Source: Streptomyces inhibens (lineage in GTDB: Bacteria > Actinomycetota > Actinomycetes > Streptomycetales > Streptomycetaceae). Taken from it: 64,000 nt of DNA. The number at the start of each line of letters is the position of its first letter. The stretch's first letter is position 1. Below, piece by piece: positions 332-23,230 of this stretch. The stretch is taken from NCBI RefSeq assembly GCF_003389455.1, contig NZ_QUAC01000219.1:1-64000 (forward strand). The letters are read 5' to 3'. The translations under genes and the position numbers were made by a program. Below the pieces are notes generated by a model. That model made no database searches, was not told where the DNA came from, and saw only the letters and a list, made by a program, of their open reading frames with translations.

Positions 332-1393
332 GTGGACGATGACATCCAGCTTGATCTGACAGGCCCGGTGCTCGTGGTGGGCGGTTATGGCACCGTCGGC
401 GGAGATCTGACCCGGCTCGCGGCGCCCTCGTGGCCCTTGCTGCTCACCGGGCGTACCCCGGAGCGCGGACGTGCGCTCGCCGATGAGGTGGGTGCGTCGC
501 TCCAGCGCTGGGATCTGAGTGATCCGGAGCCCTTCACGGCGAAGGTCCGTGCCGTGATCAGCACGGTGAACGACCCTGATGACCGGGTGCTGTTGGCCGC
601 GATCCGTGGCGGTGTCCCGTACGTGGACATCACGCGATGGACGGCGCGGCTGCAGCGGGCCACCGCGGTGGCGGCCGTGACGCCGCCCACGGCTCCGGTG
701 CTGCTGTCGTCGAGCTGGATGGGTGGGGTGACCGGGCTGGTCGCCGCGGCGCTGGCGCGTGAGCTCGGTGGGGCGGCCGCGGTGGAGATCGCCATTCGGT
801 ATGACCTCAAGGACCGGGCGGGCACGGACTCGGTGGAGTTCATGGACCGGCTCGGGCTCGATTACGAGGTGACCGAGGGCGGGCAGCGGCGGATGATCAC
901 GCCGCTGAGCGGGGCCGGGACGGTCAGCATCGGCGGGCATCGGACCAAGGTGGCGCGGATCGATACGCCGGAGCAGTTCACCCTGCCGTTGGTGCTCGGG
1001 GTGGATACGGCCATCACGCGGATCGGCTTCAGCGCCAATTCGTCGACGTCCACCCTGCTGGCGCTCAAGCGGACCGGGTTCTTCCGGTGGGGGCGTGGGG
1101 ATCGGTTCGAGTCCACGCGGCGGTCGATGCTGTACTCGCCGGGTGAGGGTGGCAGCGCCCTGTTGCGGATCGATGTGCGCGGGCGCGGTGGCGAGCGGCG
1201 TACGGCGACGGTCACCGATCCGGCCGGGCAGGCCCATCTCACGGCGCTGGGCGGGCTGTTGGGGCTGCGCCGGGTGCTGGGTGAGGACGGTGCAAAGGCG
1301 CCTCGTGGGGTGGTTTTCCCCGAGATGACGCCGGTGCCGCAGGATGTCGTTCCCGCTTTGGAGAAGGCGGGCGTCAAGGTCGAGGTGGCATGA
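332..1393 (+). CDS. Saccharopine-dehydrogenase-like NAD(P)-dependent oxidoreductase
   Basis: 353 residues. The N-terminus has a Rossmann signature, VLVVGGYGTVGGDLTRL (residues about 11-27), followed by TGRTPERGRALADEVG and the sequence AVISTVNDPDD, as in the saccharopine dehydrogenase NADP-binding family, which includes the trans-acting enoyl reductases of mycobacterial lipid synthesis. The rest of the protein is unlike true saccharopine dehydrogenase, so lysine metabolism is unlikely. The GTG start lies 10 bases after a palindromic operator, leaving almost no leader. The stop overlaps the TetR start by 4 bases, so the two are translationally coupled. A role as enoyl or imine reductase in the adjacent cluster is possible but inferred only from position. 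Confidence 0.7.
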   Translation: MDDDIQLDLTGPVLVVGGYGTVGGDLTRLAAPSWPLLLTGRTPERGRALADEVGASLQRWDLSDPEPFTAKVRAVISTVNDPDDRVLLAAIRGGVPYVDITRWTARLQRATAVAAVTPPTAPVLLSSSWMGGVTGLVAAALARELGGAAAVEIAIRYDLKDRAGTDSVEFMDRLGLDYEVTEGGQRRMITPLSGAGTVSIGGHRTKVARIDTPEQFTLPLVLGVDTAITRIGFSANSSTSTLLALKRTGFFRWGRGDRFESTRRSMLYSPGEGGSALLRIDVRGRGGERRTATVTDPAGQAHLTALGGLLGLRRVLGEDGAKAPRGVVFPEMTPVPQDVVPALEKAGVKVEVA

Positions 1394-2037
1394 GCGAGGA
1401 GAAGGAGTCGGGCGCCGGGAAGGGCTCGACGCTGACGCGGCAGGGCAGCATTCGGCGGACGAGTCTGCTGGATGCGGCCGAGACCGTGCTGGTGGCCAAG
1501 GGGGCGGATGCCTCGCTGCGGGCCATCGCCGGTGAGGCCGGGGTGCGGGTCGGGCATCTGCAGCACTACTTCCCGACCCGGGCCGATTTGATCAAGGCGG
1601 TGCTGGAGCGGGCGCTGGACCGTTCGCTGGAGCGGCTGGCCGAGACGACGGGGCTGCGGATGGTGCGCGACGATCCGTCGGCCATCGGCACTCCGGAGGG
1701 GCCGGCGAACCCTGACGAGGTGGTGGCGGTGGTCCTCGCCGAGCAGGAGGATCCGCAGCTGGTGCGGCTCTATGTCGAGGTGTGGGCGCTGGCCGCGCGG
1801 GATGACGAGATCGCCACGGTGGTCCGGGAGTTCTACCGGAAGTACGTCGCGCATGTGGAGGCGTTCGTTCAGCAGGGGCGGCCGGACTGGTCGGGTGAGT
1901 TCTGCCGGGCCAGGGCCGAGACCTTTGTCGCGCTGGTCGAAGGGGCGGCCTTGATGCGGTCGGGTATCGCCGGCAGCCGGTCGGCCGCGATGGATGCACA
2001 ACTCGCGCTGTTTGCCGTGCGGTTGCTCCGGGACTGA
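1390..2037 (+). CDS. TetR family transcriptional regulator
   Basis: 215 residues. The N-terminal helix-turn-helix is evident: RRTSLLDAAETVLVAKGADA, then LRAIAGEAGVRVGHLQHYFP, then TRADLIKAVLERAL (residues about 18-75). Recognition helix VRVGHLQHYF is typical of the family. The C-terminal ligand/dimer domain is variable. It forms an ATGA-overlap operon with the upstream reductase. The palindromes at 304-321 and 4856-4867 are of the type bound by TetR dimers, so the protein probably represses its own operon and the biosynthetic operon starting near 5387, released by a pathway intermediate. That regulatory reading is inference. Confidence 0.88.
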   Translation: MSEEKESGAGKGSTLTRQGSIRRTSLLDAAETVLVAKGADASLRAIAGEAGVRVGHLQHYFPTRADLIKAVLERALDRSLERLAETTGLRMVRDDPSAIGTPEGPANPDEVVAVVLAEQEDPQLVRLYVEVWALAARDDEIATVVREFYRKYVAHVEAFVQQGRPDWSGEFCRARAETFVALVEGAALMRSGIAGSRSAAMDAQLALFAVRLLRD

Positions 2038-2158
2038 GCGCCGGGGCGGGCGGGGGCGCGGGCCGGTCGGTGCCGTACGGCGGTCCGGTCCGGTCCGTGC
2101 CGTACGGCGGGCCGGCCGGTGCGCCGTCAGAGGTGAATTCACTTAGGGGGGATCTCGT

Positions 2159-3337
2159 ATGACCGAGGTAGTGGACCTGGCCGAGCTCGCCGCGACGGCC
2201 GGGCTGGAGCAGGAGCTCGACCGGCTCGCCAAGAGCCAGGGCATCATCCGTACCCGTCAGCTGAATCAGCAGGAGACCTGGACGGTGCTCGGTGCGGCGC
2301 TGACGCGTGAGCTGCTGAGTGATCCGCGGCTGTCCAACGATGTGCACACCCATGCGCCGCACGGGGCGCTGGTCCCGGGGATGGCCGTGATGCTCCTGGA
2401 GCAGGACGACCCCGGGCATGCCCGAAACCGCCGGCTGGTGAGCGCGGCGTTCGCCTCGCGGGCGGTACGGCAGCTGGAGCCGCGGATCGTGGAGATCACC
2501 CGGCAGCTGCTGGACGGGCTGGGGGAACGCGGTACGGCGGACTTCATCGAGGAGTTCACCTATCCGATGCCGCTGGAGGTGATCTGTGAGCTGCTGGGGG
2601 TGCCGGCGGAGGACCGGGATCCGTTCCGTAAGTGGGCGATGGACATCTCTGCCGCGCCGTCGGTGGAGGCGATGCAGGCGGCGGCCGTGGAGCTGTTCAG
2701 TTACTGCATCGGGCTGATCGGTGCCAAGCGGGAGCGGCCCACCGAGGATCTGCTCAGTGAGCTGATCGTCGCCCGGTTCGACGACGGGAGTGCGCTGAGC
2801 GATGCGGAACTGTCGTCGTTCGCCGCGGTGTTGCTGATCGCCGGCCATGACACGGTCACCAATCTGCTGGCCAATGCGCTGCACGATCTGCTGGCCCACC
2901 CCGAGCAGCTGGCCGCGCTGCGCCGCGATCCGGCGCTGGTCGGCGCGGCGGTGGAGGAGGCGCTGCGGTTCCGGGGCTCGGCCATGACCACGGTCAACCG
3001 GGTCGCGAGGGAGGACATCGAGGCCGGTGGCGTCACGATCCGCAAGGGGGAGCTGGTCCGCTTCCTGCTGAACGCGGCCAATCGCGATACCGAGGTACGG
3101 GCCGATCCGCACTCCTTCGACATCGGCCGGGCGACCGCGCAGCATGTCGCGTTCGGGATGGGGCCGCACTTCTGCCTGGGACAGCGGCTGGCCCGCCAGG
3201 AGGCGACGATCGCGCTGACGGAGATTCTGCAGCGCTTCAGCACGCTTGAACTCGCGGTACCGGCCGATGAGGTGCGCTGGCTGCCGTCGGACGCGATCCG
3301 CGGTCTGGTCGAGCTGCCGCTGCGGTATGCGCGCTGA
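2159..3337 (+). CDS. Cytochrome P450
   Basis: 392 residues, the usual bacterial P450 length. The I-helix shows AGHDTVTNLL (acid-alcohol pair for oxygen activation), the K-helix EEALRF (ExxR), and the heme loop FGMGPHFCLGQRLARQE with Cys339 as thiolate ligand. The start is the ATG after a strong GGGGGGA ribosome site. The ferredoxin and ferredoxin reductase genes follow within 36 and 3 bases, so this operon supplies a complete class I electron chain. The substrate is unknown; position suggests an oxidation (hydroxylation, epoxidation or desaturation) of the polyketide made by the downstream genes. Confidence 0.95.
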   Translation: MTEVVDLAELAATAGLEQELDRLAKSQGIIRTRQLNQQETWTVLGAALTRELLSDPRLSNDVHTHAPHGALVPGMAVMLLEQDDPGHARNRRLVSAAFASRAVRQLEPRIVEITRQLLDGLGERGTADFIEEFTYPMPLEVICELLGVPAEDRDPFRKWAMDISAAPSVEAMQAAAVELFSYCIGLIGAKRERPTEDLLSELIVARFDDGSALSDAELSSFAAVLLIAGHDTVTNLLANALHDLLAHPEQLAALRRDPALVGAAVEEALRFRGSAMTTVNRVAREDIEAGGVTIRKGELVRFLLNAANRDTEVRADPHSFDIGRATAQHVAFGMGPHFCLGQRLARQEATIALTEILQRFSTLELAVPADEVRWLPSDAIRGLVELPLRYAR

Positions 3338-3373
3338 GCATCGGGGCTGTGCCGTAAGGGAGTTGGGGGACAG

Positions 3374-3565
3374 ATGAAGATCACGGTGGATGACGGGCTG
3401 TGCGACGGGCTGGGGCAGTGTGCCCTGGTGGCGCCCGAGGTGTTCGCGCTCGATGACGACGAGCGGCTGGTGGTGGCGCCGGAGCCGGCGCGGGAGCTGG
3501 CGGGCAAGGTGGCGGCCGCGGCGCGGGCGTGTCCGGTGCGGGCCATCTCGGTCGAGGAGTCCTGA
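3374..3565 (+). CDS. 3Fe-4S type ferredoxin
   Basis: 63 residues, with the Streptomyces P450-ferredoxin pattern: Cys10 and Cys16 in CDGLGQC and Cys53 in ACPVRAISV. The position between Cys10 and Cys16 where a 4Fe-4S ferredoxin would carry a fourth cysteine is occupied by other residues, indicating a 3Fe-4S cluster. GGGGGA stands before the ATG. It sits between the P450 and its reductase and almost certainly passes electrons from the latter to the former. Confidence 0.95.
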   Translation: MKITVDDGLCDGLGQCALVAPEVFALDDDERLVVAPEPARELAGKVAAAARACPVRAISVEES

Positions 3566-3568
3566 GCC

Positions 3569-4792
3569 GTGCGCGAGGTCGTCGTGGTGGGGGCGGGCCT
3601 GGCGGGTGTGCGGGCCGGTGAGTCGCTGCGGGCGCAGGGGTTCTCCGGCCGGCTGACGGTGGTGTCGGACGAGCGTGAACTGCCCTACGACCGGCCGCCG
3701 CTGACCAAACAGGTGGTCTCCGGGACGATGACGGAGTCCGATATCCGGCTGGCGGGCGCCGAGGACTTCGGCGCCCGCTGGATCCGGGGGACCGCGGCCG
3801 TCGGTCTGGACCGGGAGCGGCGCCGGGTGCGGCTGGCCGACGGTGCGGAGCTGCCGTACGACGGGGTGGTGCTGGCGCCCGGGGCCAAGGCCAGGGCCTG
3901 GTCAGGGGCGGTGCCGCCGGCCGGGGTGCTGACGGTGCGGGGGCTCGATGATGTCCGGAGGCTGCGTGTCGCAGTGGACGGTGGGGCTCGTGAGGTGGTC
4001 ATTGTCGGGGCGGGGTTCGTCGGGGTGGAGCTGGCGTCGTCGCTGAGCGGGCTCGGGGTGCGGGTCACGCTGGTGGAGCCCTTCGGCCGGCCGTTGCGGG
4101 CGCTGGGCGCGGCGGTTTCCGGGGTGGTGGCAAAGGCCGCGGGCCGGGCGGGGGTCGTGGTGCGGCTGGGGACCGGGGTGCGGGGGTTTCGCGACAGCGG
4201 CGGCCGGGTCGCGGCTGTGGAGCTCGTCGACGGGAGTGTGCTGCCGGCGGCGCTGGTGGTGGTGGCGATCGGGATGGTGCCGGCGACCGGCTGGCTGGCG
4301 GGGTCGGGGCTGGCGTTGCCGGCCGGCCGGATCCACTGTGATGAGCGGCTGTTCGCCCGGACCGCGGGCGGGGCGGGTGCGCCGGATCCGGGTGTGGTGG
4401 TGGCCGGGGACGCCGCGTGGTGCGATGCGGTGCGGGCGGCGGACGGGCCGGTTGCGCTGGAGCACTGGAGCAATGCGGCCGCGCAGGGTGAGCTGGCCGC
4501 GCGCAATCTGCTGGCCGGGCCGGCGGCGGCCGAACCGTACGACCATGTCCCCTCGTTCTGGACGGCGGCGTTCGGGCTGCGGATCAAGTCGGTCGGTCTG
4601 CCGGGTACCGGTGACCGGACGGTGGTCGAGGCGGGGGATCCGGCCGTCGGCGCGGTGCTGGTGGCGCACTACCGCGAGGGGCGGCTGGTCGGTGCGGTGA
4701 GTGTGAATCAGGGGCGGTTGCTGTCGGCGTATGCGCGGCGGTTGCAAGAGGAACGGATGGTCGGCCGGGGAAACAAAACCGTCGGAACGTGA
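3569..4792 (+). CDS. FAD-dependent ferredoxin reductase
   Basis: 407 residues. Two dinucleotide folds are visible: VVVGAGLAGVRAGESL at the N-terminus for FAD and VVIVGAGFVGVELASSL (around residue 140) for NAD(P)H. Further family markers are YDRPPLTKQ, the ATG-like motif VVAIGMVPATGWL, and VVAGDAAW with EHWSNAAAQG near the C-terminus. This is the rubredoxin/ferredoxin-reductase type that serves bacterial P450s. The GTG start lies 3 bases after the ferredoxin stop, so the P450, ferredoxin and reductase genes form one operon. Confidence 0.93.
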   Translation: MREVVVVGAGLAGVRAGESLRAQGFSGRLTVVSDERELPYDRPPLTKQVVSGTMTESDIRLAGAEDFGARWIRGTAAVGLDRERRRVRLADGAELPYDGVVLAPGAKARAWSGAVPPAGVLTVRGLDDVRRLRVAVDGGAREVVIVGAGFVGVELASSLSGLGVRVTLVEPFGRPLRALGAAVSGVVAKAAGRAGVVVRLGTGVRGFRDSGGRVAAVELVDGSVLPAALVVVAIGMVPATGWLAGSGLALPAGRIHCDERLFARTAGGAGAPDPGVVVAGDAAWCDAVRAADGPVALEHWSNAAAQGELAARNLLAGPAAAEPYDHVPSFWTAAFGLRIKSVGLPGTGDRTVVEAGDPAVGAVLVAHYREGRLVGAVSVNQGRLLSAYARRLQEERMVGRGNKTVGT

Positions 4793-5386: not shown

Positions 5387-5965
5387 ATGCAGAACCCCTT
5401 CGAGACAGAGCAGATCCACGAGATCGTGCGAGAGGGCCTGGCCCAGGTGCTGGGCAGCAGCACCGACGAGATCACCCCGGACGCCACCCTTGTCGCCGAC
5501 CTCGGCGCCGAATCGCTCGACCTGGTCGAATTCCGCTTCGAGATGGAGACCAAGCTCGGCGTGGCGCTGCCCAAGTCGAATGTGCTCGACCTGCTGGCGA
5601 CGGCGCTCGGCGGTTCGGAGCAGCTCTACGACGACCGGGGCGGGATCTCCGAACTGGCCGCGGAGGTGCTGCGGCGCAGCGCGTTCGGCTACTCCGTGGA
5701 GCAGGTGCACGCCGGTATGCGCCCGTACGAGGTCGCCGCGGCGGCCACCAGCGCGCACTGGGCCGCCTTCACCCACACGATCTTCGACCACCTCCCCGAG
5801 GTCTGCACCGAGTGCGCCGCCGACAAGGCGCAGATCGCCGTCTCCGGCAAGGCCCGGTGCGCCGGTTGCGGTGCCGCGCTGGAGCCGGCCACCGGCGACG
5901 AGGTGATGGCCGACGGCGTCCGTACGGTGCTGGAGGCGCTGGGGCACGCCCAGCCCGTGGGCTGA
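5387..5965 (+). CDS. Acyl carrier protein with C-terminal zinc ribbon
   Basis: 192 residues, far longer than a stand-alone ACP (about 80). Residues 8-80 form the carrier domain, with the phosphopantetheine site GAESLDLVEF (Ser43). A linker and helical region follow, then a four-cysteine pair of knuckles: CTEC (Cys140, Cys143) and CAGC (Cys158, Cys161), characteristic of a zinc ribbon. The ATG at 5387 follows GAGGAGAG; an upstream in-frame ATG at 5276 would add a Phe/Pro-rich stretch with no counterpart in ACPs. It carries the growing chain for the downstream ketosynthases. The ribbon may be a docking module; its function is unknown to me. Confidence 0.9.
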   Translation: MQNPFETEQIHEIVREGLAQVLGSSTDEITPDATLVADLGAESLDLVEFRFEMETKLGVALPKSNVLDLLATALGGSEQLYDDRGGISELAAEVLRRSAFGYSVEQVHAGMRPYEVAAAATSAHWAAFTHTIFDHLPEVCTECAADKAQIAVSGKARCAGCGAALEPATGDEVMADGVRTVLEALGHAQPVG

Positions 5966-6023
5966 CGCGGATGCCTGTGCGGAAGGCGTCGCTTGTCGTG
6001 CGAGTCGTGCGAAAGGAAAGCAA

Positions 6024-7328
6024 GTGAACCCCCACATACCCACCGGGGACGGCCAGGAGGTCGTGGTGACCGGCATCGGCCTGGTCGCCGGCCGGCTGAC
6101 CGACCCCGAGTCGTTGTTCGACCATCTCGCGCAGGGGCACACGCTCATCACCGAGCACCCGCTCCACCAGGAGTGGGGCGTGCCCTGCGCCGTCTCGGCG
6201 CATATCGACCCCGGGGTCCGGGCGGCCCTGGAGGACGCGGTGCCCGAGGAGGCCGGATCCCTGGGGCCGGCCGGCACCCTCGCCTGGCACGCCGCCGCCC
6301 AGGCCTGGGAGCGCAGCGGGCTGCCGCGGCGGCTCGACACCGAGCGCGGCGGCGTCTTCCTCGCGTGCAACCGGATGGTCATGGAGCCGGCCGAACTCGC
6401 CGGCCTGGCCGGCCATGTGGACTTCGCGGCCGGCGCACTGGACCTGGACAGCTATCTGGACGCGGGCGGGCCCGACGCCGAGCGCTACGAGCGGATCCAG
6501 CCGGACACCGCCACCGTGCGGCTGGCCGACTACTTCGGCGCGGCCGGTGTCCTGGAGACGCATGCGGACGCCTGTGCCGCGGGCGGGATGGCGATCGGCA
6601 GCGCCTACCGCTACATCCGCAGCGGCGTGCTCGACGTGGCGCTGGCCGGCGGCGCGGAGAGCCTGACGACGCTCACCTCCGTCACCGCCTTCTACGGGGT
6701 GGGCGCGCTCGCGCCCGCCGACGGGCAGGACGCCGGGCGGATCAGCCGCCCCTTCGACAAGGACCGCTCGGGGTTCGTCATCGGCGACGGCGCCGCGTTC
6801 CTGGTGCTGGAGTCGCGGGCGCACGCCGAGGCCCGCGGCGCCCGCATCCTGGCCCGGGTCGCCGGCTACGCGGGGGTGACCGAGGCGGTGAAGATGACGT
6901 CCAGTTCGCGGGACGGCTCGGACTACGCGGAGTGCATGCGGGCCGCCCTCACGGACGCCGGGCTCACCCCGGGCGACATCGACCATGTCAATGCGCACGG
7001 CACCTCGACCGAGGCCAACGACACCTGCGAGGCCGCGGCCCTGCACCTCGTGTTCGGGGAGCGGACCGCCGGTATCCCGGTCACCGGCAACAAGTCGGCC
7101 ATGGGGCACTCCCTGGCCAACAGCGGTGCGGCAGAAGCGGTGCTCTCGGTGCTCAGCCTGCAGCGGCAGTCCGTACTGCCGACCCTCAACTTCGCCGAAC
7201 CCGACGAGGTGACGCGCGGGCTGGACATCGTCACCGAGCAGCGCAGTACGCCGGTGACCGCCGTACTGTCGAACTCCTTCGGCTTCGGCGGCCAGAACTG
7301 TTCCCTGATCCTGGCCCAGGCGGGGTGA
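6024..7328 (+). CDS. Beta-ketoacyl-ACP synthase (KS-alpha of pair 1)
   Basis: 434 residues, a full-length KASII-type condensing enzyme. The active-site triad is intact: Cys184 in ADACAAGGMAIGSA, His in NAHGTSTEAND, and His in NKSAMGHSLANSG. The C-terminal SNSFGFGGQNCSLIL glycine-rich strand is present. The GTG start follows GGAAAG. It decarboxylatively condenses malonyl-ACP with the growing acyl chain. The next gene, overlapping by 4 bases, encodes a ketosynthase-like protein without catalytic residues, so the two look like a KS/chain-length-factor heterodimer. Confidence 0.93.
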   Translation: MNPHIPTGDGQEVVVTGIGLVAGRLTDPESLFDHLAQGHTLITEHPLHQEWGVPCAVSAHIDPGVRAALEDAVPEEAGSLGPAGTLAWHAAAQAWERSGLPRRLDTERGGVFLACNRMVMEPAELAGLAGHVDFAAGALDLDSYLDAGGPDAERYERIQPDTATVRLADYFGAAGVLETHADACAAGGMAIGSAYRYIRSGVLDVALAGGAESLTTLTSVTAFYGVGALAPADGQDAGRISRPFDKDRSGFVIGDGAAFLVLESRAHAEARGARILARVAGYAGVTEAVKMTSSSRDGSDYAECMRAALTDAGLTPGDIDHVNAHGTSTEANDTCEAAALHLVFGERTAGIPVTGNKSAMGHSLANSGAAEAVLSVLSLQRQSVLPTLNFAEPDEVTRGLDIVTEQRSTPVTAVLSNSFGFGGQNCSLILAQAG

Positions 7329-8533
7329 GCGCACCGATGACGAATCTTGATGCGGTGCGGCTGACCGCACCCGGCTTATACACGGCGGCGGGGGTGGATC
7401 CGGCGTCCCTGTGGGAGGCCCTGGTGGCCGGCAAGGACACCGGCCGGCCGTACGAGGTCGCCTCCGGGCCGTGGCCCGGGACGGACACGGTCTTCCTCGT
7501 CGACGACCCCGATGCCGCCACGCTGGGCGTGCACCGAAGGGTGCTGCGTACCTCGGAGAAGCAGGCCCGGATGGCGCTCTACGGCGCCCGGCTGTCGCTG
7601 GCCGGGCCGGCCGGGAGCGGCCCGGTGGGCGGTGAGCGCTGGGGGCTTTATCTCGGACTGCCCACGGTGGACGAGGAGTTGCTGCGTTTCACGGCGCTCG
7701 ACGGGCTGCGCGCGGCCGCCGGTTCGCCGGACCGGGTGGCGGCGCTCTACGCCCGGGAGGTCCCGCCGTTCAGCGGACTGTCCCACCTCAACAGCACCGC
7801 CGCCGCGCATATCTCGGCCGCCTTCGGGCTGACCGGGGCGATGGCCGCGTACTCGCCGTTCTCCGACGCGGGGCTGGAGGCGCTGATCGACGGGGTGCTC
7901 TCGGTCGCCGAGGGTGAGAACGAGGCGGCCGTCGTCGGAGCGGTCAGCCCCAAGGTGCATCCGCTGCTGTTCCCGCAGTACGAGGAGCTGGGCTGGAACG
8001 GCGCCACACCGGGCGAGGGGGCCGCCTTTCTGCTCGCCGCGCGGGCCGAGGACGTGCCCGTATTACAGGACGCGTCGGAGCACGGCGGGACGGCGGCGGC
8101 CCGGCTGGCCGGCTACGGGCGGGCGTTCGGCGCGGAGGGCGCGGACCGTACGGCGGCGATCGCCGAGGCCGTGCACACGGCGCTGGAGATGGCCCGTACC
8201 GACGCCGACGGCATCGGCTGGGTGCTGCCGGACGCCGTGTGGACGACGGCCGGTGAACAGGCCCAGCGCGCCGCGCTCGACCAGGTCTTCGCGGGTGCCG
8301 CCGAGCGGCCCGCGGTGATCGGCACCGAGCCTGCCACCGGTGTGCTCGGACCCGCCCACCCGCTGGCCCATGTGCTGCTGGCGCTGCACGGCCTGGCCGG
8401 CGGCCGGCGCCTGGCGGCGGCCGAGGGCGGCGCGGTGCGGGAGGAGGCGCTGCCGGTCTCCCGGGCGCTGGTGCTGGCCTGCGGTGCGCGCGGTCAGGTG
8501 TGCGCCGTCGTACTGGAAGGAGCCGGGAGATGA
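7325..8533 (+). CDS. Degenerate ketosynthase, chain-length-factor-like (pair 1)
   Basis: 402 residues from the GTG that overlaps the preceding stop (an ATG at 7337 is the alternative). The thiolase-fold outline is recognisable: NSTAAAHISAAFGLTGAMAA, DAGLEALIDGVLSVAEGENE and AAVVGAVSP match the nucleophile elbow and following strand of ketosynthases. However, the nucleophile position reads SPFSDAG (Cys replaced by Ser) and neither catalytic His motif is recognisable. It is therefore probably a KS-beta partner of the preceding enzyme. It contains two TTA leucine codons (7376-7378 and 8063-8065), the only ones I noticed in the cluster. The next gene overlaps its stop by 4 bases. Confidence 0.78.
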   Translation: MSAPMTNLDAVRLTAPGLYTAAGVDPASLWEALVAGKDTGRPYEVASGPWPGTDTVFLVDDPDAATLGVHRRVLRTSEKQARMALYGARLSLAGPAGSGPVGGERWGLYLGLPTVDEELLRFTALDGLRAAAGSPDRVAALYAREVPPFSGLSHLNSTAAAHISAAFGLTGAMAAYSPFSDAGLEALIDGVLSVAEGENEAAVVGAVSPKVHPLLFPQYEELGWNGATPGEGAAFLLAARAEDVPVLQDASEHGGTAAARLAGYGRAFGAEGADRTAAIAEAVHTALEMARTDADGIGWVLPDAVWTTAGEQAQRAALDQVFAGAAERPAVIGTEPATGVLGPAHPLAHVLLALHGLAGGRRLAAAEGGAVREEALPVSRALVLACGARGQVCAVVLEGAGR

Positions 8534-9819
8534 CCCGCCGTGTCGTGGTGACCGGACTGGGCGCCGTCTGCGGACTGGGGCTCGACTGGCAGACCATGTG
8601 GGAGGGGCTGTGCGAGGGGCGCTCGGCGATCCGCGCCTGGCAGCTGCCCGGTATCGAGGACTTCCCGGTGCGCTATGCGGCGCCGGTCGACGACGAGGCG
8701 TTCGCGCTGCGTCACGGCGTCGACGACGGCCTGGACCGGCCGATGGAGCGGCGGATGCGGTTCGGGCTGGCGGCCGCCGGGCAGGCGCTGGCCGACGCGG
8801 GCCTCGACACCGCTGCCGGCGCCGGGCGCCCGGTGGGCAGGGTCGGCACGGCCGTCGGCTCGGGCGTACCCGAGCGTGACCCGTACGAACTCCTTGCCGC
8901 CTTCGGCGAGGACGGCCGGCCGAGCTGGCAGGCGCTCTACGCCCGGCGCGCCGAACTCGACCGCGCCGGCGGCCTGTTCTGCACCAATGACGCGCTGGCC
9001 ACCGGGATCGCGGCCCGTCACCGGCTGCGCGGGCCGGCGCTCAACTTCAGCACCGCCTGCGCCGGGGCCACCCACGCCATCGGCCATGGATTCCGCATGA
9101 TCCGGCGCGGTGAGGTGGACGCGATGCTGGTGGGCGGCGCCGACTCGGTGCTGAATCTGCCCACCATGACCGGCCTCCATCTGCTCGGTGCGCCGTCGAC
9201 GTCCGAGCTGTTCGGGGACCGGCTGTGCCGCGCCTTCGACCGGGACCGCAGCGGTCTGGTGGCCGCGGAGGGCGCGGCGATGCTGGTACTGGAGAGCGAG
9301 GAGAGCGCCCGGCGGCGCGGCGCGGAGATCTACGCGGAGGTGGCCGGCTTCGGCAGCTCCCTCGACGCGTACCAGGTCACCGCCCCGCATCCGGAGGGCA
9401 AGGGCGCCGCGCTGGCGATGAGCCGGGCGCTCGCCGACGGTGCGGTGGAGCCGGACGAGGTGGACTCGGTCAATGCGCACGGCACCTCGACCCCGCTCAA
9501 CGACCCGATCGAGACCCGTGCGATCAAGGACGTCTTCGCCGGTGGCGGGCGCTACCGGAAGCTGGCGGTCACCGCCAACAAGACGATGCTCGGCCATCTG
9601 ATCGCCGCCGCCGGTGCGCCCGAGCTGATCGCCACCGTGCTGTCCGTACGGGACGGCATCGTGCCCCCGACGCTGAATCTGGAGAACCCGGATCCGGCCT
9701 GCGATCTCGACTACGTCCCTGACAAGGCCCGGCACCAGGAGGTGTCGGTGGCAGTGAGCAATTCCTTCGGCTTCGGCGGACTCAACGCCAGTCTGGTGGT
9801 GCGTGGTTATGAGCACTGA
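8530..9819 (+). CDS. Beta-ketoacyl-ACP synthase (KS-alpha of pair 2)
   Basis: 429 residues from the ATG overlapping the previous stop. The catalytic triad is intact: Cys177 in FSTACAGATHAIG, His in NAHGTSTPLND, and His in NKTMLGHLIAAAG. The C-terminal SNSFGFGGLNASLVV strand is present. It is clearly distinct from the first KS, so this is not a recent local duplication. The following gene again encodes a catalytically dead homologue and overlaps by 11 bases, giving the gene order KS, pseudo-KS, KS, pseudo-KS. Confidence 0.94.
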   Translation: MTRRVVVTGLGAVCGLGLDWQTMWEGLCEGRSAIRAWQLPGIEDFPVRYAAPVDDEAFALRHGVDDGLDRPMERRMRFGLAAAGQALADAGLDTAAGAGRPVGRVGTAVGSGVPERDPYELLAAFGEDGRPSWQALYARRAELDRAGGLFCTNDALATGIAARHRLRGPALNFSTACAGATHAIGHGFRMIRRGEVDAMLVGGADSVLNLPTMTGLHLLGAPSTSELFGDRLCRAFDRDRSGLVAAEGAAMLVLESEESARRRGAEIYAEVAGFGSSLDAYQVTAPHPEGKGAALAMSRALADGAVEPDEVDSVNAHGTSTPLNDPIETRAIKDVFAGGGRYRKLAVTANKTMLGHLIAAAGAPELIATVLSVRDGIVPPTLNLENPDPACDLDYVPDKARHQEVSVAVSNSFGFGGLNASLVVRGYEH

Positions 9820-11131
9820 CATCCCGACAACGAACCCTTCCGATGACGCGATCGTGGTGACCGGCATCGGTGCGGTGCTGCCCACCGGGCGCGGCCCGCA
9901 GGCCCTGTGGTCGGCCTGGCGGGAGGCGCAGCCGGCGCTCTCCCCCTACCGGGACCCCTACGTACGGACCCGGAAGATCACCCACTTCGGCCATGTCCCC
10001 GACGAACTCCAGCAGCAGAGCCGCGAGAGCGTCCCCCACAAACTGCGGAAGTTCGGCACCCCGTTCACCTTCAACGCGGTCCTCGCCGCGCAGGACGCCA
10101 TGGACGCGGCGGGGGAGGGCTGGCAGTCGATCCCCGAGGAGCGGCGCGGGCTCTATGTCGCCCAGGACGACTCCACCGAGCTGAGCGCCGCGGCCTTCCA
10201 CAAGGCCCTCGACAAGGCCCGCTCGGACCCGTCGGCGCAGGCGGGGGTGGATCTGCAGCGCCTGGTGGCGGAGGCGTTCGGCAACGCGGCGACCTTCAAT
10301 CCGTTCACCGTCATCAGGGCCCTCAACAACAACACCCTCGCGCTGATCAGCATCGCCCAGCGGTTCCGCGGCGACTGCGCCGCGTTCGTCCAGGACGCCG
10401 GCGCCGCGCTCGGCGCCCTGCAACGGGCCGCCTTCACCCTCCGCCAGGGCCTCTGCGACACCGCCCTGGTGGTCGGCGCGGGCAGCTTCAACGAGCCCTT
10501 GAAGCTGGCCGCGCAGTACCGCGCCGGGCATCTGAGCGCGGGCGGCCGCGGCGGGGCTGCGCTGCGCAGCTTCGACGCCGAACGGGACGGTACGGTCCTC
10601 GCCGAGGGCGCGGTCGCGCTCGTACTGGAGCGGGCCGGGGACGCCGCACGGCGCGGCGCACGGCCGCTGGTGGAGATCCTGGGCGCCGCGCTGCGGCCCG
10701 CGGTGGACAGCGGCATCGGCCCGTCCACCCTGGCCGAAGGGCCCCGCGGTCTGCTGGCCGCACACGGCCTGACCCCCGACACGCTGGGGGCCGTGCTCGC
10801 CGACGGCAAGGGCACGGTCCACCATGACGCCGCCGAGGCCGAGCTGCTGCGGGCGCTGCTGAAGGACAGCGGTGTCCCGGTCGCCTCGCTGCGCCCGGTC
10901 ACCGGCACCCTGGGCGCCGCCGGACCCCTGGCGGAACTCGCCCTCGCCCCGGCCCTGTTCGAGGCGGACGAGCTGCCGCCGATCGCGCATCTGCGGACGC
11001 CGCCGGACGACGGCACCGACTTCGTCATGGGCACGCCCAGGAAGCGGCGGATCGACTCCGTACTGAGTCTGCACAGCACGTTCAACGGATTCGCGGGAGC
11101 CGCGCTCGTCCAGCGGCCGCACACGCCATAG
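9809..11131 (+). CDS. Ketosynthase-like chain-length factor (pair 2)
   Basis: 440 residues, with ketosynthase N-terminus IVVTGIGAVLPTGRGP and C-terminal LHSTFNGFAGAALV. The nucleophile elbow reads CAAFVQDAGAALGAL, so the catalytic Cys is replaced. The first His motif reads ADGKGTVHHD instead of NAHGT, and the second reads TGTLGAAGPLAEL without Lys or His. All three catalytic positions are lost, as in KS-beta/CLF subunits of type II polyketide synthases. The ATG at 9809 (two codons inside the longer GTG frame) lies within the end of the preceding KS gene, indicating coupled synthesis of a heterodimer. Confidence 0.85.
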   Translation: MSTDIPTTNPSDDAIVVTGIGAVLPTGRGPQALWSAWREAQPALSPYRDPYVRTRKITHFGHVPDELQQQSRESVPHKLRKFGTPFTFNAVLAAQDAMDAAGEGWQSIPEERRGLYVAQDDSTELSAAAFHKALDKARSDPSAQAGVDLQRLVAEAFGNAATFNPFTVIRALNNNTLALISIAQRFRGDCAAFVQDAGAALGALQRAAFTLRQGLCDTALVVGAGSFNEPLKLAAQYRAGHLSAGGRGGAALRSFDAERDGTVLAEGAVALVLERAGDAARRGARPLVEILGAALRPAVDSGIGPSTLAEGPRGLLAAHGLTPDTLGAVLADGKGTVHHDAAEAELLRALLKDSGVPVASLRPVTGTLGAAGPLAELALAPALFEADELPPIAHLRTPPDDGTDFVMGTPRKRRIDSVLSLHSTFNGFAGAALVQRPHTP

Positions 11132-11151
11132 GGCCACGAGGGGACCACACC

Positions 11152-14034
11152 ATGTCGCAGTTCACCGCATTCGTGCAGCCCGAGATGGGGCGGATCTTCG
11201 CCGCCCTGGGGCTGGACGTCGCATACGTCCGTGCCGAGGGCAACACCCTTTACCACCGCGACGAGCAGGGCACCGAAATCCCGGTCCTCGACCTGATGGG
11301 CGGTTACGGCTCCCTGATCTTCGGCCACAACCACCCCGAGATCGTCGCCCACGCCCGGTCCCTGCTGGACGCGAACCGGGCCGTGCACGCCCAGTTCTCG
11401 CTGCGCGGCGAGGCCGGGCGGCTCGGCGCGGCGCTCAGCGAGGTCGTCCGCCGGGAGACCTCGGTCAAGGAGCCCTACCTCGCCACCTTCGGCAACAGCG
11501 GCGCCGAGGCCGTCGAGGCGGCCGTCAAACACGCCGAACTCGTCCGGGTGCGCAAGGTCATGGCGCTCGCCGACGAGATCGCCGCGCACACCGAGGCCGC
11601 CCGGGACGCCGTACGCCGCGGCGAGGCCCGCCTCGACCCGGACGTCGGACGGCTGCCGGCGGTCCTCGCCCATGGGCCGCAGGCCGACGGCATCGATGGG
11701 CTGCTGGCCGCGGTCGAGGCGCACAACGCGGCGGCGATCGGCACCCGGCCGCTGTTCCTGGCGCTGGAGCGCTCCTTCCACGGCAAGCTCGTCGGCAGCG
11801 TCCAGCTGACCTACAACAGCGGCTTCCGCGCCCCTTTCCAGAACCTCGGTGCGCGGGTGCGCTTCGTCCCCATGGACCGGCCCGAGCTGCTGGACCGGAT
11901 CGCCGACGACGAACGGGTGGTGCTGCTCGACACCGAGATCGACCAGGGGCGGGTGCGGATCGTCGAGCGCGACTTCCCGGCCATCACCGCGTTCCTGGTC
12001 GAGCCGGTGCAGGGCGAGGGCGGAATCCATGCGCTGACGACGGAGCAGGGCCGGGCCATCCGGCTGTTCTGCAACAAGGTCGGCACCGCGCTGATCATCG
12101 ACGAGGTGCAGAGCGGCATGGGGCGCTGCGGCGCGTTCCTGGCCAGTTCGCTCATCGGGCTGCGCGGCGACTACTACACGCTGTCCAAATCGCTCGGCGG
12201 CGGGCTCGCCAAGATCTCCGCGATGCTGGTGCGCCGGTCCCTCTACGAGGGCGAGTTCGACCTGATCCACAGCTCGACGTTCGCCATGGACGACTTCTCC
12301 TCGTCGATCGCGCACAAGGTCGTCGAGATGCTGGAGGCCGACGACGGACAGGCCTACCGGCAGGTCACCGAGCGCGGCGCGCGGCTCACCGGCATGCTCA
12401 CCGACCTCCGAGCCGCCTACCCCGACATCATCGAAGACGTCCGCGGCAAGGGCCTGTTCCTCGGCGTCCAGCTGCGCGACCAGGCCCAGGCCCGCTCCAT
12501 GGTGCTGCGCGGCAGCGCCTACACCGGCTCGCTCGGCTATCTGCTGTCCGGCTATCTGCTGCGGCAGGAAGGCATCCGGATCGCGCCGACCGGCAGCGCC
12601 GGCAATGTGCTGCGCATCCAGCCGTCCGCCTACCTCACGGACGAGGAGATCGAGCGGCTGCGCGGCGCGCTGGACCGGCTCTGCCGCATCCTGCGCTACG
12701 AGGACACCCTGCATCTGGTGCACCCGGCCAGCGACCGCAGGATCGCCAAACCGCGCGCGCAGATCAAGGACTTCCGGGGCGCGGTGGCCGGGTACGAGCA
12801 GGGCGAGCGGCGCCCGGTGACCGGACCGACCCGCAAGGTCGCATTCCTCAACCACCTCATCGAGCCCGCGCATCTGCGGCAGGTGGACCCGGCGCTGGCC
12901 GACCTGAGCGATGCGGCGCTGCGCTCCTTCGTGCTCGGCATGGACCCGGTGAAGAAGGCGGCGCCCTATCCCGGCGTCCGGATCGACTCACCGCTCGGCA
13001 GCGCCGTCGAATTCTCCCTCTACCCGCTGATGGTGGGGTCCGAGCAGATGGGCCGCTACCTGGCCACCGGCGATGTCGCCGGGATCCGTGCGGACATCGA
13101 GGAGCGGGTGCGGGCGGCACGCGAGGACGGCTGTGAGGTCGCGGGCCTGGGGATGTACACCTCCATCGTCACCCACAACTGCACCTCGTTGAAGGTCCCG
13201 GGCATCGCGCTGACCTCCGGCAACGCGCTGACCGTCGCCATGGGCGTGCAGGCGATGGAGCGGGGTGCCGAGGACCGCGGCCGGCGGGTCGAGGACGCCA
13301 CGCTGGCCGTGGTCGGCGCGGCCGGCAATATCGCCTCGGTCTACAGCCAGCTGTTCGCCGAGCGGCTGCGCCGTATCGTGCTGGTCGGCAGCCGCCGGGA
13401 CGGCTCGGCCGGGCGGCTGCGGAACACCGTGCACGGCATCTACCAGGAGTGCTGGTCGCGGATCGCGGCCGGCGGTGAACTGGCCGGGATTCCGGCGCGG
13501 TTGGCCGAGGAGCCGCTGATCACCAAGTGGCTGGCCGAGGGCCCGGCCGACGACGCGGGCCGGGGCCGGGCGATCGCCGAGTACCTGGAGGAGCGCTACG
13601 GGACCGACCCGTTCCTGACGGTCACCCAGGACAGTGCGGCCCTGCGCGAGGCGCAGCTGGTGCTGTGCGCCTCGAACAGCCCCGAACCGTTCCTGACCGG
13701 CGAGCACTTCGCGCCGGACGCGGTGATCTGCGATATCGCCGTACCCAACAACGCCGTGCCCGGACTGGCCGCACAGCGGCCCGACCTGGCGTACATGCTC
13801 GGTGGCATCGTCGCCACGCCGAATGGCGAGAGCCTGCACCCCTCGGCGCGCGCCTTCCTGGAGGCGGGCCAGCTGTTCGCCTGCATGGCCGAGACCGCGC
13901 TGATGGGGCTGGCCGGCATCGACCACCACTACTCCTACGGGAACATCACCCGCCAACAGGTCATCGACATCGCGGCGCTGGCCGAGGCGCACGGTCTGCG
14001 GCTGGCCGACTACAAGAGCGCGCACTCGGTGTGA
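11152..14034 (+). CDS. Class III aminotransferase fused to acyl-ACP-reductase (AAR-like) domain
   Basis: 960 residues. Residues about 1-510 are a fold-type I class III aminotransferase: DLMGGYGSLIFGHNHP, FGNSGAEAVEAA, LVEPVQGEGGIHA, LIIDEVQSGMGR, and PLP-binding Lys346 in LSKSLGGGL. Residues about 560-960 resemble cyanobacterial long-chain acyl-ACP reductase: GLGMYTSIVTHNCTSL, the nucleotide-binding VVGAAGNIASVYSQLFAERL, GGIVATPNGESL, and LFACMAETALMGL with Cys911 at the place of the acyl-accepting cysteine. The predicted joint reaction is reductive release of the ACP-bound chain as an aldehyde, then transamination to a primary amine. PigE and TamH are analogous two-domain enzymes. A 15-bp-arm hairpin follows the stop. 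Confidence 0.88.
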   Translation: MSQFTAFVQPEMGRIFAALGLDVAYVRAEGNTLYHRDEQGTEIPVLDLMGGYGSLIFGHNHPEIVAHARSLLDANRAVHAQFSLRGEAGRLGAALSEVVRRETSVKEPYLATFGNSGAEAVEAAVKHAELVRVRKVMALADEIAAHTEAARDAVRRGEARLDPDVGRLPAVLAHGPQADGIDGLLAAVEAHNAAAIGTRPLFLALERSFHGKLVGSVQLTYNSGFRAPFQNLGARVRFVPMDRPELLDRIADDERVVLLDTEIDQGRVRIVERDFPAITAFLVEPVQGEGGIHALTTEQGRAIRLFCNKVGTALIIDEVQSGMGRCGAFLASSLIGLRGDYYTLSKSLGGGLAKISAMLVRRSLYEGEFDLIHSSTFAMDDFSSSIAHKVVEMLEADDGQAYRQVTERGARLTGMLTDLRAAYPDIIEDVRGKGLFLGVQLRDQAQARSMVLRGSAYTGSLGYLLSGYLLRQEGIRIAPTGSAGNVLRIQPSAYLTDEEIERLRGALDRLCRILRYEDTLHLVHPASDRRIAKPRAQIKDFRGAVAGYEQGERRPVTGPTRKVAFLNHLIEPAHLRQVDPALADLSDAALRSFVLGMDPVKKAAPYPGVRIDSPLGSAVEFSLYPLMVGSEQMGRYLATGDVAGIRADIEERVRAAREDGCEVAGLGMYTSIVTHNCTSLKVPGIALTSGNALTVAMGVQAMERGAEDRGRRVEDATLAVVGAAGNIASVYSQLFAERLRRIVLVGSRRDGSAGRLRNTVHGIYQECWSRIAAGGELAGIPARLAEEPLITKWLAEGPADDAGRGRAIAEYLEERYGTDPFLTVTQDSAALREAQLVLCASNSPEPFLTGEHFAPDAVICDIAVPNNAVPGLAAQRPDLAYMLGGIVATPNGESLHPSARAFLEAGQLFACMAETALMGLAGIDHHYSYGNITRQQVIDIAALAEAHGLRLADYKSAHSV

Positions 14035-14037
14035 GCC

Positions 14038-14075
14038 GCGGGTGCCGCGCACGGTGAGCAGTGCGCGGCACCCGC
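14038..14075. terminator. Strong hairpin inside the biosynthetic operon
   Basis: GCGGGTGCCGCGCAC (14038-14052) and its exact complement (14061-14075) form a 15-bp stem with an 8-base loop, starting 4 bases after the aminotransferase/reductase stop and 33 bases before the FabG start. No T tract follows. It may terminate, attenuate, or protect the upstream transcript end. Confidence 0.7.
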
Positions 14076-14107
14076 CCCTCCCCTCCCCACAGATTCGAGA
14101 GGACGCC

Positions 14108-14854
14108 ATGGAATTCGAAGGCCAGGTGGCGCTGGTGACCGGCGGCAGCCGGGGCATCGGCCGCGCGATCGCCGTACGGCTCGCTGAGGCCGGGTGCGAT
14201 ATCGCGCTCAACTACCGCAGCGCCACGACCGAGGCGGAACAGGTCGCCGAGCGGATAGCCGGGCTGGGCCGCAAGGTCGAGCTCTACCAGGGGGACATCT
14301 CCGACCCCGAGGTGCCGCACACGATCGTGACCGGTGTACGCGCCTCCTTCGGGCGGATCGATGTGCTCGTCAACAACGCCGGGATCACCCGTGACGAACT
14401 GCTGGTCAACCAGAGCCTCAAGGACATCGAGCAGGTCCTGGCCACCAACCTGATCGCCCCGATGCTCACCGTGCAGGCCGTGGCGCCCGTCATGCTCCGC
14501 CGGCGGTACGGACGGATCGTCAATATCTCCTCGTCCGCCGCCTCCAAGCCCGGCCGGGGTCAGTCCAACTACGCGGCGGCCAAGGGCGGTCTGGAGGCGT
14601 TCACCAAGGCAATGGCCGTGGAACTCGCCTCCCGCGGGATCCTGGTGAACGCGGTCGCCCCCGGAGTGATCAACACCGAGATGACGGACGCCATCCGCAG
14701 CCACGGCGAGGACGAGATCATGCGCCGGCTGCTGGTGAAGTCCTACGCCGAACCCGAGACGATCGCCGACGCCGTGGCCTACCTCGCCAGCCCCCGCAAC
14801 ACGTACACGACGGGCGAGGTACTCCACGTCGACGGCGGACTGAAGATGGCGTGA
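14108..14854 (+). CDS. 3-oxoacyl-ACP reductase, FabG-type SDR
   Basis: 248 residues of classical short-chain dehydrogenase. Cofactor motif VTGGSRGIGRAIA, NNAG at DVLVNNAGITRDEL, catalytic Ser in NISSSAASKPG, and YAAAKGG (Tyr-x-x-x-Lys). GITRD and the C-terminal TGEVLHVDGGLKM are FabG hallmarks. The start follows GAGAGGA. It most likely reduces the beta-keto groups made by the ketosynthases. It lies after the intra-operon hairpin, so its level may differ from that of the synthase genes. Confidence 0.92.
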   Translation: MEFEGQVALVTGGSRGIGRAIAVRLAEAGCDIALNYRSATTEAEQVAERIAGLGRKVELYQGDISDPEVPHTIVTGVRASFGRIDVLVNNAGITRDELLVNQSLKDIEQVLATNLIAPMLTVQAVAPVMLRRRYGRIVNISSSAASKPGRGQSNYAAAKGGLEAFTKAMAVELASRGILVNAVAPGVINTEMTDAIRSHGEDEIMRRLLVKSYAEPETIADAVAYLASPRNTYTTGEVLHVDGGLKMA

Positions 14855-14864
14855 GAGGCCGGTC

Positions 14865-15671
14865 ATGAGTGAATACGACGCACACCACGCCCCGGCGCCC
14901 GGCGAATTCGCGGGCCGGACCGCCGTCGTCACCGGCGCGGCCCAGGGCATCGGCCGCGAGGTCGCCCTCCTCCTGGCCGCGTCCGGCGCCGCGCGGCTCA
15001 TCCTGCTGGACCGGGACGCCGCCCAACTGGACACCGTCGTCAAGGAAGTGGGCGAGCTGGGCGCGGTCGCCGTGCCCGTCCCCGTGGACCTGCGCGAACG
15101 CGACCTCGTACGCACCCGGCTCCGCGCCGAACTCCGGGCCGCCGGCAAGCTCGACATTCTCGTCAACAACGCCGGAGTGGCCGACGAGAACGGCCCCGAC
15201 GACGAGACCACCTGGCTGCGGGTGCTGGACATCAACCTGCACGGCACCTTCGCCGTCACCGCCGCCTGCCTGGAATACCTCGTCGACAAGGGGCGCATCG
15301 TCAATGTGTCCTCCATCCTCGGCAAGGCCGGCAAGATGCGGAACACCGCCTACTGCGCCTCCAAACACGGCCTGATCGGCTACACCAAGGGCCTCGCCCT
15401 CGACCTCGCCGCCCGCGGGATCACGGTCAACGCCGTGCTGCCCGGCTGGATCGACACCCCCATGCTCCGCCGCGAACTCGCCGCCCAGGCCGACGAGATC
15501 GGCGCGGACCCGGCGCGGATGCTGCGCCAGGCCCGTAAGAGCATCCCGCTGCGCCGGCTCGTCGAGGCGCGGGAGGCCGCAGAGCTGATCGGATTCCTGG
15601 TGTCCGACCGCGCGGCCGCCATCACGGCGCAGAGCCTGACCGTCGACGGGGGCTACACCCGTGGGATGTAG
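14865..15671 (+). CDS. SDR family oxidoreductase
   Basis: 268 residues. VVTGAAQGIGREVALLL (NAD(P) binding), DILVNNAGVADENG, NVSSILGKAGKM and YCASKHG give the full SDR catalytic set (Asn, Ser, Tyr, Lys). The C-terminus TAQSLTVDGGYTRGM is typical. It is less FabG-like than its neighbour, and the last 11 bases overlap the thioesterase gene. It may be a second ketoreductase or reduce an imine/ketone after chain release; the sequence does not decide. Confidence 0.88.
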   Translation: MSEYDAHHAPAPGEFAGRTAVVTGAAQGIGREVALLLAASGAARLILLDRDAAQLDTVVKEVGELGAVAVPVPVDLRERDLVRTRLRAELRAAGKLDILVNNAGVADENGPDDETTWLRVLDINLHGTFAVTAACLEYLVDKGRIVNVSSILGKAGKMRNTAYCASKHGLIGYTKGLALDLAARGITVNAVLPGWIDTPMLRRELAAQADEIGADPARMLRQARKSIPLRRLVEAREAAELIGFLVSDRAAAITAQSLTVDGGYTRGM

Positions 15672-16452
15672 CCCCTGGCTGCGCCGGCTGGGGCAGCGTC
15701 CGCCCGGGGCCATGGGGGTCCCCCCTTGCTCCTCAAGAGCTTGGGGGAGGGTGATCTGCTTTCCGCACGCGGGCGGCGGCGCGGGCGCGTTCCGGCCGCT
15801 CGCCAAGGCCGTCGCCGCCTCGCACCCCGAGCGGGCCCGCCCGTACGAGGTGCTGGCGGTGCAGTATCCGGGCCGCCACGACCGCATCCACGAGGAGCGG
15901 ATCGAGGATCTGACGGAGCTGGCGGCCGGGGCGTACCAGGCGCTGGCACCGCTCGCCGACCGGCCGCTGACCCTGCTGGGGCACAGCATGGGCGCGCTGG
16001 TGGCGTACGAGGTGACCCGGCTGCTGGAGCAGGAGGGCGCCGCCCCCGTCCGGCTGCTCGTCTCCAGCGCCTGGGCCCCGTCGCGGGTCACCAACGGCAC
16101 CGTCCACCTACGGGACGACCACGGGCTCGTCGAGGAGATCCGGCGGACGCAGGGCACCGATCCCAGACTGTTGGCGGACCGGGAGGTGCTGGCCCTGGCC
16201 CTGCCCGTGGTGCGCAGCGACTACAAGGCCGTGGAGACCTACCGTCACCGGCCGGGGCCGCCGCTGCGGACGCCGGTCACCGCGCTGCTCGGCGACGCCG
16301 ATCCCCTGGTCGCCGTCGAGGACGCGGCCGCCTGGCGCGGGCACACCACCGGGGACTTCCGGATGCGGATCTTCCCCGGCGGCGACCACTTCTACCTCAC
16401 CGGACACTGGCCCGACCTCGTGGAACGGATCGGCGAGTGCTCGGACCGGTAG
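15661..16452 (+). CDS. Type II thioesterase (with repeat-derived segment)
   Basis: 263 residues. The alpha/beta-hydrolase features of RifR-type editing thioesterases are present: VICFPHAGGGAGAFRPL, YPGRHDRIHEERI, nucleophile GHSMGAL, and FPGGDHFYL near the C-terminus for the catalytic His. These enzymes hydrolyse stalled or wrong acyl groups from carrier proteins. Family members usually begin with a short SPWLRR-type leader running straight into the FPHAGG strand. Here about 16 extra residues (roughly 15-30) are encoded by a palindromic intergenic-type repeat at 15704-15751, in frame. The GTG start overlaps the SDR stop. Confidence 0.88.
   Translation: MGCSPWLRRLGQRPPGAMGVPPCSSRAWGRVICFPHAGGGAGAFRPLAKAVAASHPERARPYEVLAVQYPGRHDRIHEERIEDLTELAAGAYQALAPLADRPLTLLGHSMGALVAYEVTRLLEQEGAAPVRLLVSSAWAPSRVTNGTVHLRDDHGLVEEIRRTQGTDPRLLADREVLALALPVVRSDYKAVETYRHRPGPPLRTPVTALLGDADPLVAVEDAAAWRGHTTGDFRMRIFPGGDHFYLTGHWPDLVERIGECSDR
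15704..15751. repeat. Streptomyces palindromic repeat inserted in thioesterase gene
   Basis: A G/C-rich imperfect stem: CCCCCTTGCTC pairs with GAGCTTGGGGG around a short loop, flanked by GGGGGT and GAGGG. The layout (G run, C run, variable stem, GGGGGAGG) matches a repeat common between Streptomyces genes; a relative lies at 53605-53637 in the opposite orientation. Here it is inside an open reading frame without breaking it. Confidence 0.7.
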
Positions 16453-16486
16453 CGAGTGAGCGAGGGTTCAGACCGGTAGCGAGTGA
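16444..16486. repeat. 16-base direct repeat at cluster boundary
   Basis: GACCGGTAGCGAGTGA occurs at 16444-16459 and again at 16471-16486, separated by 11 bases. The first copy carries the thioesterase stop codon; the second encodes the last residues of the oppositely oriented coupling-protein gene. It marks the junction between the polyketide cluster and the transfer-like locus. Confidence 0.75.
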
Positions 16487-19496: not shown

Positions 19497-19519
19497 GACG
19501 TACGCGCCTCCCAGCGGCT

Positions 19520-22386: not shown

Positions 22387-23230
22387 ATGTGAACCCTCCA
22401 TACTGTGCAACGGCCTTGGCGATCTGATCGGCACCGGACGTCTTGACGTCCCCGTTGACCGGGGCAGGGCCGCTCTGCTGGGAGAAGCCCTCGACCTTCC
22501 AGTCCCCACTTGCCCATTTCAGTTGCAGCCGCATGGTGAACCAGTCGGTTGTCACCGGGGTGGTCGACTTCGCGCCTGCCGTTCCGAACAGCCCGGTGCA
22601 CCACACCTCAAGGTTCGCGGTGTCGCCCGAGAGCTTCACGAGCTTGGTGCCGACGGGAACCGTGCGGGAGATGTAGGTCATGCCCTGAGCTGCGTTGCCG
22701 TTCGCGTCGAGGGCGAGCTTCTTGAGGAAGGCGGTCGAATAGGCGGCGTCGAGCTTGCCCTGCATCTCATCGGCCTTGGTGGGAGCGAAGACCTGCTTGA
22801 TGATCGCGTGGCGCTCGTTCGGCTTGAGCATGTTGGCGGAAACCAGCGCCACCGCGTAGTTCGCCGCCGCCGACTCCGCCCCCTGCTCCGTCTTCGCGAA
22901 GCCCGACGCGATGGTGCCGTTCTTGCCGGTGACCGGCTTGGTGCCGGTGGGGGTGGTGGGCCGGGCGGCGGGGCCGGAGTCCTTGGGGGAGTCGCTGGAG
23001 GCGGATTCGTTGTTTCCGCTTCCGCCGCGGTTGGCGAAGGCGATCGCCGCGAGCAGCAGCACGATCACGCCGACGATCGTGACGAGGTTGCGGCTGGACA
23101 GGCCGGCCCGGGACCGTCTTCCCGAGCCGTAGAGGTCGCCGTCGCTCTCGGGAAGTCTGGTCCGTGTCTGGCCCGCCTCGGGACTACGGTGGCCATCGCC
23201 GCCGTAGCCGCCGTCGTCACTGAGACTCAT
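22376..23230 (-). CDS. TcpC/VirB8-like conjugation protein
   Basis: 284 residues: a polar N-terminus, one membrane helix (NLVTIVGVIVLLLAAIAFA, about residues 48-66), a Ser/Pro linker, and an extracytoplasmic domain with GAESAAANYAVALVSANML, DWFTMRLQLKWASGDWKVEG and DQIAKAVAQYGGF. A bitopic protein with such a globular domain resembles VirB8/TcpC scaffolds of the transfer channel. Sequence evidence is by architecture and context rather than strong motif identity. Confidence 0.72.
   Translation of the reverse strand: MSLSDDGGYGGDGHRSPEAGQTRTRLPESDGDLYGSGRRSRAGLSSRNLVTIVGVIVLLLAAIAFANRGGSGNNESASSDSPKDSGPAARPTTPTGTKPVTGKNGTIASGFAKTEQGAESAAANYAVALVSANMLKPNERHAIIKQVFAPTKADEMQGKLDAAYSTAFLKKLALDANGNAAQGMTYISRTVPVGTKLVKLSGDTANLEVWCTGLFGTAGAKSTTPVTTDWFTMRLQLKWASGDWKVEGFSQQSGPAPVNGDVKTSGADQIAKAVAQYGGFTYAR

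Follow-up and report, generated by a model that had tools for sequence, protein, structure and literature searches.

Amine-forming release enzymes in which an aminotransferase and a domain of the acyl-ACP reductase (AAR) type share one chain are already known. KecF of Pseudomonas koreensis was described as an aminotransferase whose C-terminal domain resembles cyanobacterial AAR, and reduction followed by transamination was proposed for it; Streptomyces clusters formed a clade of their own in the same study (Lozano et al. 2019, PMC6498172). A 2024 survey with PpKTFusion of P. putida KT2440 recovered 230 clusters, including 23 from Streptomyces and others from Zoogloea, Cellvibrio and Photobacterium, and located the counterpart of AAR Cys294 in the fusions (PMC10829540). 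Biochemical work in 2022 showed that PtTamH, from the tambjamine YP1 pathway of Pseudoalteromonas tunicata, converts C12-ACP to the aldehyde and then to the C12 amine in vitro with NADH and L-Glu, and that the enzyme is NADH-specific (PMC9594044). For PigE of prodigiosin biosynthesis, evidence for the same two activities was presented in 2021, with the same two domain types in reversed order (reductase first, aminotransferase second) and with Cys296 reported as conserved (PMC8341465). The AAR of Synechococcus elongatus (6JZU), whose catalytic nucleophile is Cys294 (PMC9594044), is by contrast a stand-alone enzyme that feeds an aldehyde deformylating oxygenase. In Streptomyces, two reports describe the stm cluster of S. 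nigrescens HEK616 as nine genes, and one of them specifies that two KS/CLF sets and an aminotransferase are among these and that the cluster directs streptoaminal formation in S. lividans (PMC12187902, PMC11272600).

The operon and its HEK616 counterpart

We analysed a 64,000-nucleotide stretch of Streptomyces inhibens DNA (contig NZ_QUAC01000219.1; hereafter the window), in which the domain identity, catalytic residues, operon context and orthology of a further such enzyme can be seen directly. As in KecF and PtTamH, an aminotransferase comes first and an AAR-type domain second within one chain, and both catalytic residues are present. The preliminary description of this DNA had implied that the fusion was novel, which does not hold, since the type is already catalogued, Streptomyces included (PMC6498172, PMC10829540). 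The gene occupies sixth place in a co-directional nine-gene operon on the plus strand (5387-16452; Table 1). All nine genes are syntenic with a locus of S. nigrescens HEK616 (L001), at ~71-92% protein identity and with the same order, strand and two KS/CLF sets, and the fusion gene, present there in a single copy, encodes a protein that is 87% identical over 960 aa. We equated the HEK616 locus with stm by strain, gene number and gene content. HEK616 is a separate Streptomyces genome, and its cluster is reported to give streptoaminals. We conclude that, within a highly reducing, type II-like polyketide operon of the streptoaminal (stm) type, the fusion very probably serves to release the chain, which would depart as an amine. 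From the HEK616 cluster we infer a product of the streptoaminal or 5-alkyl-1,2,3,4-tetrahydroquinoline type.

Table 1. Features of the operon, the fusion gene and the upstream unit, with their positions in the window
Feature	Position	Strand	Basis or remark
Upstream unit: TetR regulator, cytochrome P450, ferredoxin, ferredoxin reductase	1390..4792	+	outside the published nine-gene count
Acyl carrier protein, C-terminal extension with two CxxC pairs (Zn-ribbon-like)	5387..5965	+	PP-binding E 1e-9
Ketosynthase 1, Cys/His/His intact	6024..7328	+	profile search, alignment
KS-like chain length factor 1, active-site Cys absent	7337..8533	+	profile search, alignment
Ketosynthase 2, Cys/His/His intact	8530..9819	+	profile search, alignment
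KS-like chain length factor 2, Gln replacing Cys	9803..11131	+	profile search, alignment
Aminotransferase-AAR fusion, KecF/PtTamH type, orthologue of the stm cluster aminotransferase	11152..14034	+	960 aa
N-terminal class III aminotransferase domain, CrmG-like, catalytic Lys346 codon 12187-12189	11152..12753	+	Aminotran_3, 5dds
C-terminal AAR-fold thioester reductase domain, GAAGNIA, Cys911 codon 13882-13884	12754..14031	+	TIGR04058, PigE model, 6jzu
FabG-like ketoreductase (SDR)	14105..14854	+	profile search
Second SDR reductase	14865..15671	+	profile search
Type II thioesterase, start codon uncertain	15661..16452	+	PF00975 E 9e-52

A different product, a koreenceine-like tetrahydropyridine in place of a streptoaminal or 5-alkyl-tetrahydroquinoline, would fit the identical kec layout of two KS/CLF pairs, an ACP and two reductases, to which Pseudomonas adds kecIJK, and the kec authors themselves counted Streptomyces clusters as koreenceine-like (PMC6498172). 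Our likening of KecF and PpKTFusion to the present enzyme follows their published descriptions, and the koreenceine cluster is one of Pseudomonas. We consider such a product unlikely given that the high protein identity noted above is to a cluster of the same genus that is reported to give streptoaminals, and we retain the streptoaminal-type reading in what follows.

Within the ACP, the serine of AESLD is conserved. Its CxxC pairs are kept in Streptomyces, Zoogloea and Cellvibrio, and an unusual predicted structure has been reported for the koreenceine-cluster ACP of P. putida (PMC12490732).

The TetR, P450, ferredoxin and ferredoxin reductase unit lies upstream in every Streptomyces locus long enough to show it, and was absent from the proteobacterial loci examined. 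Among 392 sampled genomes of the order, a full-length stm-type fusion was found in four (86-100% identity, the genome of the window included), and the P450 (E below 1e-120) is confined to these same four. The unit may tailor the product. More tentatively, and with some doubt on our part, the Streptomyces cluster could extend beyond the published nine genes, such that the linked P450 unit that proteobacteria lack oxidises the amine to an undescribed metabolite.

Genes resembling type IV secretion components (T4SS-like, TraG/VirB4-type) adjoin the operon on the minus strand (16468-23230). They accompany it in most of the Streptomyces relatives whose sequence extends far enough, including the HEK616 chromosome, and are absent in one locus (L007); we therefore regard them as a conserved chromosomal neighbour and dropped the idea that the cluster sits on a conjugative element.

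Catalytic residues and the proposed release reaction

The fusion ORF is intact from ATG to stop and has a strong coding character, with a GC content of 0.72/0.47/0.94 at the three codon positions. Pfam Aminotran_3 covers residues 23-507 (E 2e-57), and in a PDB sequence comparison the closest solved structure for this half was CrmG (5dds, E 1e-149), with Lys346 aligned to CrmG Lys344; the N-terminal half is thus a class III (omega) aminotransferase that retains its PLP lysine, as the preliminary description had proposed. Motif searches of the window protein placed Lys346 within SKSLGGG (residues 345-351) and Cys911 within FACMAE (909-914), and located VVGAAGNIAS at residues 720-729 and GGIV at 884-887. 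Along the chain the order is VVGAAGNIAS, then GGIV, then FACMAE, which is also the order in AAR, Synechococcus AAR included. The same motifs had been named earlier and said to follow the AAR order; their presence and that order stand, and the sequence in which they were then listed does not.

We aligned the window protein with 13 full-length relatives, among them proteins from Streptomyces, Zoogloea, Cellvibrio, Photobacterium and a Firmicutes MAG. All 14 sequences retain both Lys346 and Cys911, and ACMAET around Cys911 is unchanged across all of these groups. This establishes the gene as a fusion whose domains, motifs and catalytic residues are conserved far beyond chance. PtTamH has the same domain order, with Lys340 and Cys887 as its catalytic residues, and differs in its partner, the adenylation-ACP protein TamA with a C12 fatty acid, in place of the type II PKS operon found here.

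The homologues allow a reaction sequence to be proposed. A fatty-acid-like starter would be extended and partly reduced on the ACP by the two KS/CLF pairs and the ketoreductases, and the acyl group would then pass from the ACP to Cys911 of the AAR-fold domain, to be held there as a thioester. Reduction of this thioester by NAD(P)H would give an aldehyde, which the aminotransferase domain of the same chain would convert to a terminal amine through PLP and Lys346. The amine could finally cyclise onto an in-chain ketone or oxidised carbon, giving an N-heterocycle of the streptoaminal or 5-alkyl-tetrahydroquinoline type. Coupling of aldehyde release to transamination within one chain, an idea already present in the preliminary description, gains support by analogy from the in vitro work on PtTamH (PMC9594044) and the proposal for KecF (PMC6498172), the homologues from which we take both reactions as well as their coupling. 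Our full-length structure model (pTM 0.53) is too poor to inform on domain arrangement or channelling.

If the reductase domain were degenerate or had another role, the aminotransferase alone would act on an aldehyde made elsewhere. Two observations could be read in this way: the in vitro demonstration of both activities comes from PtTamH, outside Streptomyces, and Ala stands in the third Gly position of the dinucleotide motif. The latter change, in which the GxxGxxG region reads GAAGNIA, occurs in Streptomyces, Zoogloea and Cellvibrio, and Gly is found in Photobacterium. Against this, Cys911 and ACMAET are invariant from Streptomyces to the Firmicutes MAG, PtTamH is active, and a profile search of the operon found no other evident aldehyde-releasing enzyme, making a degenerate reductase very improbable. 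We thus favour a domain that reduces the Cys911-bound acyl group. Because PtTamH accepts NADH alone and the motif here has Ala in place of the third Gly, NADPH cannot be assumed, and cofactor use by the domain is uncertain.

Family and fold of the reductase half

In the C-terminal 426 aa, no Pfam family reached its cut-off. Among curated NCBIfam models, the best was that of the PigE N-terminal half (E 2e-26, below cut-off), followed by the AAR model TIGR04058 (E 8e-11), whose 41.9 bits amount to roughly one tenth of the 449.7 bits set as its equivalog cut-off. Sequence matches to solved structures were likewise to PigE and to Synechococcus AAR (6jzu/6jzq, E 3e-6), and the sequence alignment pairs Cys911 with residue 294 of the 341-residue Synechococcus chain, the position of the AAR nucleophile. 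We next compared structures, using an AlphaFold2 model of the domain built from 16 sequences (mean pLDDT 76, medium confidence; pTM 0.78). Foldseek ranked AAR crystal structures best (E down to 3e-17), and VIA-align gave Z 29.5 against 6jzu, with 305 residues aligned at an rmsd of 3.2 and ~20% identity over the structural alignment. The next family after AAR was the TAD domain of the carmabin pathway (Z ~28), and other dehydrogenases followed at Z ~14. The model thus predicts an AAR fold across the entire domain.

These results bear on the earlier assignment of this half as a cyanobacterial-type AAR, which had been made to depend on Cys911 coinciding with the AAR nucleophile and on no other family matching better. 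The cysteine does coincide in the sequence alignment, and the proposed alignment of a predicted structure to AAR put 6jzu first; the AAR fold also stands, but the PigE N-terminal model outscores AAR. With the PigE model closest, the AAR model second and neither reaching its cut-off, the label 'AAR-type' fits the domain and 'cyanobacterial AAR' is imprecise: the C-terminal half shares the AAR fold as a relative, without being a cyanobacterial AAR itself. An extended SDR of the NRPS/PKS thioester reductase type with Tyr/Lys catalysis, which would share the chemistry and the position in polyketide alkaloid pathways that use a terminal reductase and then an aminotransferase (PMC6498172), is scarcely credible, as the preliminary description had also held: Pfam, searched to E 1, and NCBIfam, searched to E 10, gave no thioester-reductase, extended-SDR or NAD_binding_4 match, the best structural matches are AAR, and the Cys nucleophile is conserved in all relatives. 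Among the structural matches listed there was likewise no thioester reductase of the SDR type, an absence that carries no weight on its own.

Taken as independent tests, these analyses indicate that Streptomyces streptoaminal-type operons most likely use an AAR-type reductase-transaminase release, of which the window provides one more orthologue. The usefulness of such fusions as biocatalysts that turn ACP-bound acids into amines is already noted in the literature.

Related fusions in other genomes

We found the same core operon on 13 other Streptomyces contigs of the genome collection, some of them cut. Without the thioesterase, the core also occurs on a Zoogloea contig and in a related MAG, on three Cellvibrio contigs and on a Photobacterium replicon. 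Among 391 genomes of the Cellvibrio order we identified two further fusions (L083 and L084; 35-37% identity), neither with type II KS genes nearby, the contig of L084 being short; the Pseudomonas kec cluster was not recovered in this set.

More divergent fusions, at ~34-48% identity to the window protein, adjoin large KS-containing ORFs (L056, L057, L058, L059, L062, L063, L064). In other Streptomyces, fusions at 46-48% identity have type I PKS-like neighbours of this kind that are roughly 900-2600 aa long, some being cut by the end of the fetched stretch. Such settings suggest that type I PKS clusters of Streptomyces, too, make use of AAR-type release.

Small actinobacterial genomes (1-3 Mb) from other families commonly carry stand-alone AAR-like ORFs of ~360-400 aa (for example L068-L077), and two larger frames, of 754 and 779 aa, may be further fusions.
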